DNA of 64,000 bases from Elusimicrobiaceae bacterium (lineage in GTDB: Bacteria; Elusimicrobiota; Elusimicrobia; Elusimicrobiales; Elusimicrobiaceae). The position numbers were made by a program, and so were the translations under genes. Below the pieces are notes generated by a model. That model saw nothing but the letters and a program-made list of their open reading frames with translations, had not been told where the DNA came from and made no database searches. The stretch covers positions 62,001 to 126,000 of the forward strand of contig JAFXUJ010000001.1 in NCBI GenBank assembly GCA_017525025.1, given 5' to 3'. Below are positions 28,368 through 31,081 of this stretch, piece after piece. Position 1 is the first letter of the stretch, and each line of letters starts with the position of its first letter.

Positions 28368-28395
28368 TTTACAACCATAGAAAATTTTGTAGAAT
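28368..28395 (+). promoter_or_regulatory. Plus-strand promoter upstream of structured RNA
   Basis: TTTACA, 16-bp spacer, TAGAAT (28390-28395). A purine-rich AAGGAG at 28415-28420 follows but has no usable ATG/GTG behind it. A second extended -10, TTGGTACAAT, lies at 28457-28466. Confidence 0.5.
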
Positions 28396-28471
28396 ATAGC
28401 CATCTTATTTAGTTAAGGAGAATTTTCATAGCAGCACCCCAAGCCGCGAAATAGGTTTGGTACAATTTGAA

Positions 28472-28722
28472 CTATTTTTGGAATCCTATGAAAGAATAGG
28501 AGGTGCTTTTGTAAAAAAGCCCATGAGAGTCCAAAAATAGCCGTTTGAGGCAGAGGATGTTTTAGGGTAGCTCCCCAAGGCATCTTCTGCCGAATGTTTC
28601 GCATATCTTTGTGCGAAACTACGGCTGTTTGATGCTGGGACCCTCTCATGGCTTGGCATTATTCAGCCGTTTTTTGCGCCTTATTTTTACGGGATTTCCA
28701 ATAAAGGAGATCCCGTTTTTTT
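28472..28722 (+). ncRNA. Candidate structured RNA or regulatory leader, family not recognised
   Basis: The 620-bp stretch 28292-28910 has no gene. Within it, stem A pairs CCATGAGAG (28521-28529) with CTCTCATGG (28643-28651); stem B pairs AGCCGT (28539-28544) with ACGGCT (28621-28626). Inside B lie stem C of 11 bp (28549-28559 with 28581-28591) and stem D TTTCGCA/TGCGAAA (28597-28618): a three-way junction. Two alternatives compete. CTATTTTTGGA (28472-28482) can pair with TCCAAAAATAG (28530-28540), and ACGGCT can instead pair with a second AGCCGT (28665-28670) that is followed by TTTTTT. An extended -10 at 28457 and a strong terminator at 28689 bound it. I checked by eye for tmRNA, RNase P, SRP and common riboswitch cores and found none. 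6S-like RNA is not excluded. Confidence 0.6.
28689..28722 (+). terminator. Terminator after the structured RNA
   Basis: ACGGGAT (28689-28695) pairs with ATCCCGT (28710-28716), followed by a T run to 28722. Bases 28723-28910 after it hold no clear gene; a -35-like TTGACT at 28777 lacks a matching -10. Confidence 0.8.
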
Positions 28723-28910: not shown

Positions 28911-29870
28911 GTGACGAAACCGCTTTCCGTTTGTTTTGCTTGTGATGATAAATATGCACCGTATATGGGACTGGCTATGCTTTCTGTTTTGCAATCAGCT
29001 GACCGGGCAGATCGCTTTCATTTCTACATACTGGATAATAAAATATCAGCCCAGAACAAAAAGAAACTGGCAGAATTACACCGGAAATACCGTTTTGGCC
29101 TCACGTATATTCCGCTGGATGAACATCTTTTTGCCCGGTGTGATGCCAAGCGCTCTAACTGGACGTTGTCTATTTTCGGGCGGTATTTAATCCCCAAGGT
29201 TATTTCGGATGATAAGGTGTTATATTTGGATTGTGATGTTATGGTAAGAAGTAGCTTGCGCCCGCTTTTTGAAGAGGATATCCGCCGTTATTACGTGGCC
29301 GGGGTGCCGGATTACAATGTAATCTTCCGCGGAAAACTTCGTGAACGCTTTGGAGTTAGTTTTAAAAAAGAAGAATACGTTAATAGCGGAGTGTTGCTTA
29401 TCAATAATAAAAAATGGCGGGAAGAAAATTTATTTGAAAAACTACTGGATTTTTCTCAAAGGCATGCGGCAGAACTTTTATGGCCGGACCAAGACGCTAT
29501 TAACGTGGTTTGCCAACATCACAAAAAGATACTGCCCGAGCGTTACAACGTCATGGGATATCTATACAAGCCGGATTTATTTTTAAATAGTCCGCGCTTT
29601 GCCCAAATAAAACAAGAAACACGGCACCCGGTTATTCGGCATTTTCATGCGTGGAAGAAAAATTTTTTTGTTCCGCACCGAAGCGAATATTTAACACTTA
29701 TTCAAAACAGCCCATGGCCGCAGCTGATGCCCCAAGATGATATAAAACCATGGGCTTGGTCCAAAATTGTTAGCCGGTATTTGTGGAATCATCCTTTCTG
29801 TTTTCTGCTTCCTAAATTTTATAAACGTTGGAAATACCGTGGTACAGCGTGCTTGTTTATGGACGCGTGA
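28911..29870 (+). CDS. Glycosyltransferase family 8
   Basis: 319 residues, GT-A fold. Retaining GT8 features: the start VCFACDDKYAPYMGLAMLSV, metal-binding DxD as LDCDVMV (D107, D109) and WPDQDAIN. Similar to LPS glucosyl/galactosyltransferases. The start is GTG with GGGGG 7-11 nt before it; an ATG 3 nt upstream runs straight into TGA. It opens a three-gene set with GT9 and an acyltransferase, most likely building LPS core or another surface glycan. Confidence 0.88.
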   Translation: MTKPLSVCFACDDKYAPYMGLAMLSVLQSADRADRFHFYILDNKISAQNKKKLAELHRKYRFGLTYIPLDEHLFARCDAKRSNWTLSIFGRYLIPKVISDDKVLYLDCDVMVRSSLRPLFEEDIRRYYVAGVPDYNVIFRGKLRERFGVSFKKEEYVNSGVLLINNKKWREENLFEKLLDFSQRHAAELLWPDQDAINVVCQHHKKILPERYNVMGYLYKPDLFLNSPRFAQIKQETRHPVIRHFHAWKKNFFVPHRSEYLTLIQNSPWPQLMPQDDIKPWAWSKIVSRYLWNHPFCFLLPKFYKRWKYRGTACLFMDA

Positions 29871-31081
29871 GGTTCTTTGTGGATAGTTTAGATTATTTAC
29901 AAGAAAAACTGATTCATTTGCAAGAAAAATATTCGCATCGTCCGCGTTATTGTGCGTGGCGGATGGCGTTTATTTCTTTACGGGCACTTACCAAACGGTT
30001 TGACGGAAAAGTTGATTCTCTGTCGCGTTGTTGGGGGAAACAACGTGATTATCCGGCCATTGTATTTTCTGTGAAGGGAGGAATGGGCGATTTGCTGTTG
30101 GCTAATAATTACATTTATTGCGTGCGTAAATATTTGAATGATGCCAATTTTAATTTTAAAATTTGCTACCACGCGTTGCCATTATTGCAAGCTTTTTGTT
30201 TCCCGGAGGCGGAAACCGGGACGAAACTGGACAAAATGTCCGGCGTATTAAAAGTAGAGTTAAACCGTTTTCCGCGCGTACTGGCAGGAGACAGAAAAAA
30301 GCTCAGCCAATATAGCCCGCGGTTGGGGCATCTTTTGGTAACGTGGGATAATTTTTTTAAGCATAACCGTAAATTTTTTGATTTTATGCCGCAGACAGAT
30401 GGCCTTGGAAATCACTATACGCAACTTTTAGGGGCTAAACGTATCAGTCAAGCCGATATTGGGGGCGTGCTTAATATGGATGAAGAATACAAAGCGCCGA
30501 TACCCATGCCTTCTTCCGGAAAAGAAAGAGATATTTTAACTAAATTCGGTTTGAACGGAGATCCGTTTGTTACAGTGCAGCGCGGGCAAGGGTTGGTAAC
30601 CAACACCAGCACAAACAATAAGTTATGGCCGGTGGAGTATTACAATACGTTGGTGGGGTTAATCAAACATCAAGGGCCCCGGTATAAAATTGTGCAGTTG
30701 GGTACCAGCCGGGAAGGTTTTAACGAAGATTTTGAGGGGGTAGATTTCAATTTACGTGGCAAAACAAATTTAGAAGAAATCAAAGTAATTTTAAAGTATT
30801 CTAAATTGCATATAGATTGTGAAGGCGGTTTGGTGCATTTGCGCCACGCGCTTCACGCGGGGCCCAGCGTGGTACTGTTCGGGCCGACTTCACCGGAAGT
30901 GTACGGATATAAAGAAAATCTTAATTTGCATAGTAGTGCCTGTAAACATCCGTGTGAATGGGTGACAAACGATTGGCTTTCGCGCTGTGCGCGCCGTAAA
31001 GATAAAAATTGTTGTATGAAAAAATTAGAGCCACAATTTGTGTTTGAACAAATCAATAAGCGTTTTGCTTTGAAAAAATAA
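29867..31081 (+). CDS. Glycosyltransferase family 9 (heptosyltransferase-like)
   Basis: About 404 residues if read from GTG at 29867, which overlaps the GT8 stop as GTGA; an ATG at 29828 in frame would give 417. GT9 marks: FSVKGGMGDLLLANNYI near the N-terminus (nucleotide-sugar fold start) and the C-terminal HIDCEGGLVHLRHAL ... SVVLFGPTSPEVYGY, the ADP-heptose-binding region. A Cys-rich tail (SSACKHPCEW ... SRCARRKDKNCC) is unusual. Probably LPS core assembly with its neighbours; donor sugar not known. Confidence 0.85.
   Translation: MRFFVDSLDYLQEKLIHLQEKYSHRPRYCAWRMAFISLRALTKRFDGKVDSLSRCWGKQRDYPAIVFSVKGGMGDLLLANNYIYCVRKYLNDANFNFKICYHALPLLQAFCFPEAETGTKLDKMSGVLKVELNRFPRVLAGDRKKLSQYSPRLGHLLVTWDNFFKHNRKFFDFMPQTDGLGNHYTQLLGAKRISQADIGGVLNMDEEYKAPIPMPSSGKERDILTKFGLNGDPFVTVQRGQGLVTNTSTNNKLWPVEYYNTLVGLIKHQGPRYKIVQLGTSREGFNEDFEGVDFNLRGKTNLEEIKVILKYSKLHIDCEGGLVHLRHALHAGPSVVLFGPTSPEVYGYKENLNLHSSACKHPCEWVTNDWLSRCARRKDKNCCMKKLEPQFVFEQINKRFALKK

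Follow-up and report, generated by a model that had tools for sequence, protein, structure and literature searches.

A 64,000-nucleotide stretch of the genome of an Elusimicrobiaceae bacterium (GenBank assembly GCA_017525025.1, contig JAFXUJ010000001.1, positions 62,001 to 126,000; hereafter the window, with coordinates counted from its first letter) contains at 28462-28675 one member of a multi-copy structured RNA family, as identified with a covariance model and by sequence comparison. With a probability of about 0.8, we read this RNA of roughly 215 nt as belonging to a new family of leaders that would act in cis, close to the promoter, as transcription attenuators and would control surface-gene repertoires. 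Comparison of the copies establishes the helices, both alternative states, the position upstream of genes and the palindromic loops. An earlier note on the window, made from its letters alone, had suggested a leader resembling a riboswitch, or else a regulatory RNA, that belongs to an undescribed class and alternates between a three-way junction and a terminator. It did not foresee that the family has many copies and is linked to pilin genes, nor that there is a copy-specific helix (PK) and a palindromic loop in hairpin P2.

A search of the window against Rfam 15 gave no RNA-family match at or above the gathering score for the leader; only two tRNAs were matched. Five further family members, for which a permissive local search was included, yielded only weak, unrelated matches below threshold, and neither they nor the window matched the Rfam models of the T-box leader or of the cyclic di-GMP (c-di-GMP-I and -II) riboswitches. 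With no model at gathering score, a known Rfam class was rejected. The same holds for 6S RNA, since its model was unmatched in the window and the architecture does not resemble a long hairpin with a central bubble. The RNA family is also undescribed in the literature searched, the coverage of which is incomplete, so that it may have been reported elsewhere. As far as we found, not only the family is new, but also the number of its copies, the palindromic loop and the copy-specific helix inside the switch.

A DNA search detected a diverged second copy in the window's own genome and copies in 20 of the 61 genomes searched, all within the window's genus. We built a covariance model (R1) from an alignment of 25 copies. 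It identified 12 full-length copies in the window's genome and at least 129 in the 1.7 Mb genome of a relative (G084; 150 of 636 candidates scored), a number that to our knowledge is exceptional for a structured cis-regulatory RNA. Matches to R1 were present in 95 of 341 Elusimicrobiota genomes, namely in 62 of 66 genomes of the window's genus, all 18 of a sister genus (g15), 13 of a distant family (f21), and 2 of a further family within the order. Between close relatives, the copy number ranged from 0 to more than 100. An Evansella record (L156) that was matched by the P1 sequence pattern had no R1 match and was taken as chance.

The window segment 28464-28722 folds at -112.9 kcal/mol, compared with a mean of -65.9 kcal/mol for shuffled sequences (z = -10.1; none of 200 shuffles was as good). 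Base pairs were counted in a model-free MAFFT alignment of 25 copies, then in 107 distinct copies. Covariation was extensive in both sets, and the counts supported P1, P1a, P2, P3, P4 and the long-range PK; none of 500 shuffles reached the observed values. When the partners were slid by 1-3 columns, pairing fell from 92-95% to about 34-50%. The R1 alignment does not favour PK or the antiterminator helix (AT), because R1 contains neither of them. All pairings listed in the earlier note are present: P1 has 11 bp (28472-28482/28530-28540), and the 9-bp helix is PK (28521-28529/28643-28651). The hairpins are longer than claimed there (P2 15+3 bp, P3 10 bp).

AT (28536-28543/28622-28629) excludes P1 as well as P4, because it is built from the 3' strand of the former and the 5' strand of the latter. 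In about 108 copies, seven of its eight pairs can form in 97-100%, and the last one in 87%. Positions 28541 and 28542, which neither P1 nor P4 constrains, have a possible AT partner in 107/108 and 108/108 copies, respectively, and are almost always pyrimidines facing G. At 28537-28628, A-U has become G-C in three copies, a change that is required by neither P1 nor P4. AT and PK together are predicted to form a closed three-way junction around P2 and P3. In minimum free energy (MFE) folds of nascent RNAs that stop at the PK 3' strand, AT appeared in 105 of 106, while the full-length RNAs contained P1 in 97/106 and P4 in 98/106 cases. The copies have two features that are expected of an attenuator leader: a conserved, mutually exclusive antiterminator (AT and PK), and a terminator immediately before the gene (P4 and a U run in which T28671-28673 are 94-95% conserved). 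In the window, ACGGCT at 28621-28626 can indeed pair with AGCCGT at 28539-28544 or with AGCCGT at 28665-28670, as the earlier note had noticed. The six T it placed after the second AGCCGT are found at 28670-28675, although the first of them already belongs to that arm. The switch between junction and terminator is supported in relatives for both states.

PK is specific for each copy. Within a copy, its two strands form 10 contiguous pairs on average, compared with 4.2 between copies, and at least 8 pairs are possible in 185/188 copies. Its sequence is nearly unique per copy (103 distinct sequences in 120 copies). Some PK sequences are common to copies in different genomes. Selection for PK sequence identity was rejected as the cause, because overall identity is high enough for such sharing to be explained by descent. 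In two copies (L165:251-468 and L125:2545-2762) the PK strands are mismatched, and the 3' strand of L165 equals that of L120; recombination between copies or an assembly chimera is possible.

In 175/188 copies the apical loop of P2 includes a palindrome of 4 nt or more, and in 120/188 one of 6 nt. Among 42 distinct P2 loops, 23 had a 6-nt palindrome, when shuffling predicts 2.6 (maximum 8 in 400). The same test detected no palindrome excess in the loops of P3, P1a and P1b. Some 15 palindromes occur, including UAAUUA, UUAUAA, GAUC, UCAUGA, AGCU, UUGCAA and UUCGAA, so that the loop switches among palindromes across homologs, as a symmetric kissing-loop homodimer would require. In the OLE and GOLLD RNAs, such palindrome-to-palindrome switching has been interpreted as evidence that kissing loops form symmetrically between molecules (PMC12286853). 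The adjacent bases of a palindromic loop are unable to pair together inside one molecule, and a kissing homodimer is therefore predicted from the self-complementarity of the P2 loop. The type of palindrome is associated with the class of the downstream gene: UAAUUA and UUAUAA loops precede pilins in 60/74 cases, and GAUC, UCAUGA and AGCU loops precede non-pilin genes in 49/74 (chi-square p = 2.6e-7, with copies treated as independent despite their kinship).

The genes after the leader encode type IV pilins in most cases. Of the 119 prepilin N-terminal matches listed for G084, 77 are directly preceded by an R1 RNA on the same strand, and 76 of these 77 RNAs sit 32-70 nt before the prepilin match. 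The median distance from the RNA end to the start codon is 38 nt (100 copies with a near gene, of 120 distinct copies). Other genes behind the leader code for glycosyltransferases, a polysaccharide pyruvyl transferase, a beta-barrel outer-membrane protein, an EcoRI-type methylase, a type I restriction R-like protein and a SNF2/ResIII helicase.

A TATAAT-like box lies 15-90 nt upstream of P1 in 183/206 copies (114 expected), and an AGGAG motif occurs in 37/119 copies (about 8 expected). The best promoter candidate in the window (TTTACA-16-TAGAAT) ends at 28395, and the putative start of the leader lies near 28402. The "extended -10" of the earlier note (TGGTACAAT, 28458-28466) is probably not a promoter, because other copies conserve (T)ACAATTT as part of the RNA, at its 5' end, and many of them have a TATAAT-like box farther upstream.

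Table 1. Features of the leader and of its surroundings in the window
Feature	Coordinates	Strand	Evidence or remark
Candidate promoter TTTACA-16 nt-TAGAAT	28368-28395	+	Consensus scan; weak on its own, because 2 sites were found vs 1.8 expected
AGGAG motif near the putative 5' end	28416-28420	+	No start codon after it; subset of copies
Conserved ACAATTT element directly 5' of P1	28462-28468	+	Conservation among copies
P1 5' strand CUAUUUUUGGA, putative anti-antiterminator strand	28472-28482	+	P1 98.2% paired, 107 distinct copies
P1a hairpin, within P1	28484-28501	+	98.1% paired; all 6 pairs changed on both sides
P1b hairpin, within P1	28502-28522	+	Variable, aligns poorly; hard to count because its length varies
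PK 5' strand CCATGAGAG, copy-specific	28521-28529	+	Partner 28643-28651; all 9 pairs covary
P1 3' strand; its 3' part doubles as AT 5' strand	28530-28540	+	Covariation
AT (putative antiterminator) 5' strand	28536-28543	+	Partner 28622-28629
P2 hairpin	28549-28591	+	95% paired; 12/12 counted pairs covary
Self-complementary AGCU in P2 apical loop, predicted kissing-dimer site	28569-28572	+	Palindromic loop
Extra covarying pair A28594-U28620 at P3 base	28594-28620	+	A-U in 54 copies, G-C in 49
P3 hairpin	28596-28619	+	96.2% paired; 10/10 pairs covary
P4 5' strand (28621-28627)/AT 3' strand (28622-28629), mutually exclusive	28621-28629	+	
PK 3' strand CTCTCATGG, loop of the terminator hairpin	28643-28651	+	Covariation
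P4/P4b predicted intrinsic terminator and U run	28621-28675	+	P4 99.5% paired
Second predicted intrinsic terminator (hairpin 28689-28716)	28689-28722	+	Subset of copies only
Glycosyltransferase family 8 gene, first of putative operon	28911-29870	+	PF01501, E = 8.8e-39
Glycosyltransferase family 9 gene, second of putative operon	29828-31081	+	PF01075, E = 4.2e-10

From this arrangement we infer transcription and termination, the direction of control, dimerisation and the trigger as follows. P1 would fold first during transcription. After the 5' strand of P4 and the 3' strand of PK have emerged, the P1 3' strand may rearrange onto the P4 5' strand to form AT, and PK would then zip around the P2/P3 three-way junction, so that the terminator is blocked and the gene is on. 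If P1 instead persists or re-forms, P4 would fold and transcription would stop ahead of the gene, leaving it off. P1 would thus act as anti-antiterminator, AT with PK as antiterminator and P4 as terminator. An input at the conserved core or at the self-complementary P2 loop would bias this choice, and the likeliest contact in trans would be another RNA of the family via the P2 kissing loop. The effect would be selective expression out of a large surface-gene repertoire, which might explain how gut Elusimicrobiota cope with 60-150 pilin-like genes. It is conceivable, though we consider it doubtful, that the leaders form an RNA-only self-recognition network, in which terminated leaders accumulate and bind nascent leaders of the same type via their P2 palindromes and their own locus via the PK strands, thereby coupling the pilin, glycan and restriction genes of each type. 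If so, leader types would determine the active members of a surface repertoire of a hundred genes. A leader whose predicted dimerisation loop is matched to a gene class would be an unusual, RNA-only way of coupling many genes.

The attenuator reading would also hold with a different input if P1-P3 were the aptamer of a small-molecule riboswitch, in which a metabolite or second messenger chooses between P1/P4 and AT. The compact conserved architecture, with conserved unpaired positions at 28545, 28548, 28593 and 28595, would fit such an aptamer, as would the riboswitch-type expression platform and the use of one element over many genes. However, outside the helix strands invariant unpaired bases are few, P1b and the apical loop of P2 differ in kind from copy to copy, as a ligand pocket seldom does, and the genes behind the leader suggest no single metabolite, nor is there a match in Rfam. 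We consider a riboswitch a serious but minority possibility. A somewhat weaker case can be made for a leader that depends on an antiterminator protein, either LicT/BglG-like or RfaH/LoaP-like. NusG paralogs typically target surface polysaccharide and pilus genes. Each of 7 genomes, the RNA-rich G084 and G064 included, has only one NusG-family match, and with no specialised paralog in these genomes RfaH/LoaP-type control was rejected. In a protein search confined to the NusG family, the RNA could be tied to no particular antiterminator gene.

Two further explanations appear far less probable. In the pil1 locus of Streptococcus gallolyticus, attenuation is mediated by ribosomes on a leader peptide (PMC3894217), and the AGGAG motif upstream of a subset of copies could hint at the same mechanism. 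Yet a Shine-Dalgarno sequence with a start codon is present in the leader region of only 57/206 copies, the AGGAG of the window is followed by no start codon, and many leaders appear to begin close to P1. A leader-peptide attenuator was rejected, as there is no conserved short leader open reading frame (ORF), and we regard ribosome-mediated control as highly improbable. The number of copies, which is large and differs widely (0 to at least 129), and the PK sequences common to some copies of different genomes might instead suggest a mobile or recombination element near pilin genes (a repeat like a miniature inverted-repeat transposable element, or a folded-DNA site) rather than a regulatory RNA. 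The single fixed orientation and the tight distance to the start codon argue against this, as do the conserved terminator U run and compensatory changes that include G-U pairs. The P1 pattern was found in no viral contig, which also speaks against phage origin. A mobile element is therefore very unlikely.

Some observations count against the attenuator leader as we read it. The window copy itself is atypical, with the gene start 235 nt downstream, past the second terminator. The AT positions are so highly conserved that true double changes are few. MFE folding ignores pseudoknots and kinetics, and PK cannot be represented together with P1. As the copies are related, the cell counts overstate the number of independent events. 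Finally, the number of RNAs does not follow the number of pilins across genomes; one genome with 58 prepilin matches (G029) lacks any match to the RNA.

Compared with known systems, the Elusimicrobiota leader resembles transcription-attenuating riboswitches and T-box leaders in its 5' position, the mutually exclusive antiterminator and terminator, the U run before the gene and the many loci per genome. It differs from them in having no Rfam match, known aptamer or specifier, and in carrying a long copy-specific PK within the antiterminator as well as a palindromic loop. Control by RNA before pilin genes would be shared with c-di-GMP riboswitches, which occur upstream of pilin genes, for example in Clostridioides difficile; their architecture is different, and their Rfam families were not matched. 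Attenuation before pilus genes is already known in another form: in pil1, a premature terminator stem-loop precedes the pilus genes and governs their expression, and a variable-repeat leader peptide opens it in an attenuation-like phase variation (PMC3894217). The Elusimicrobiota leader likewise places a premature terminator ahead of pilus genes, but no leader ORF is conserved in it, and what is conserved is the RNA as such, a family with up to about 130 copies per genome. Self-complementary loops are also found in OLE, ROOL and GOLLD (PMC12286853). Those are large RNAs of other families, whereas here a dimer is only predicted, for a leader with a terminator switch.

Some copies depart from the common form. 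Three (L019, L023 and L031) represent a diverged subtype, in which the P3 region is enlarged and the P1/AT sequence altered (AGCGGYC paired with GRCUGCU); by inspection, AT appears to be kept between L019 and L023 through a matched change. The strong terminator that the earlier note saw at 28689 was located as the hairpin 28689-28716. This second terminator has a common form (GGATTCCA..TGGAGTCC, then a T run) in the window (28689-28722), L011, L012/L059, L015, L026, L031 and L150, and several leaders that carry it precede glycosyltransferase genes. Its 5' arm has 7-10 bp of complementarity to the P1 5' strand in L011, L015, L026, L059 and L150. When all second hairpins found were tested for such control by the P1 5' strand, their complementarity to it did not exceed that of cross-copy pairs (4.4 vs 4.2), with many of the scanned hairpins lying inside coding sequence.

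Pilin genes without the RNA were also seen. G102, a single contig of 1,643,562 bases, has 80 prepilin matches and only one weak R1 match. Many sampled RNA-less pilin genes (L174-L210; G000, G084; e.g. L187, L191, L205) have a promoter in which a tract of about 9-14 T lies between a -35-like CTTG/TTGAC and a -10-like GATAYWCT box; this spacer looks open to slippage-type phase variation. On contigs C3 and C4 of G084, several pilin genes are oriented divergently to an RNA-led pilin gene, the start of which is about 110 nt away, and the two share the intergenic region (for example, RNA at C4:61718-61929 on the minus strand and pilin at C4:62035 on the plus strand).
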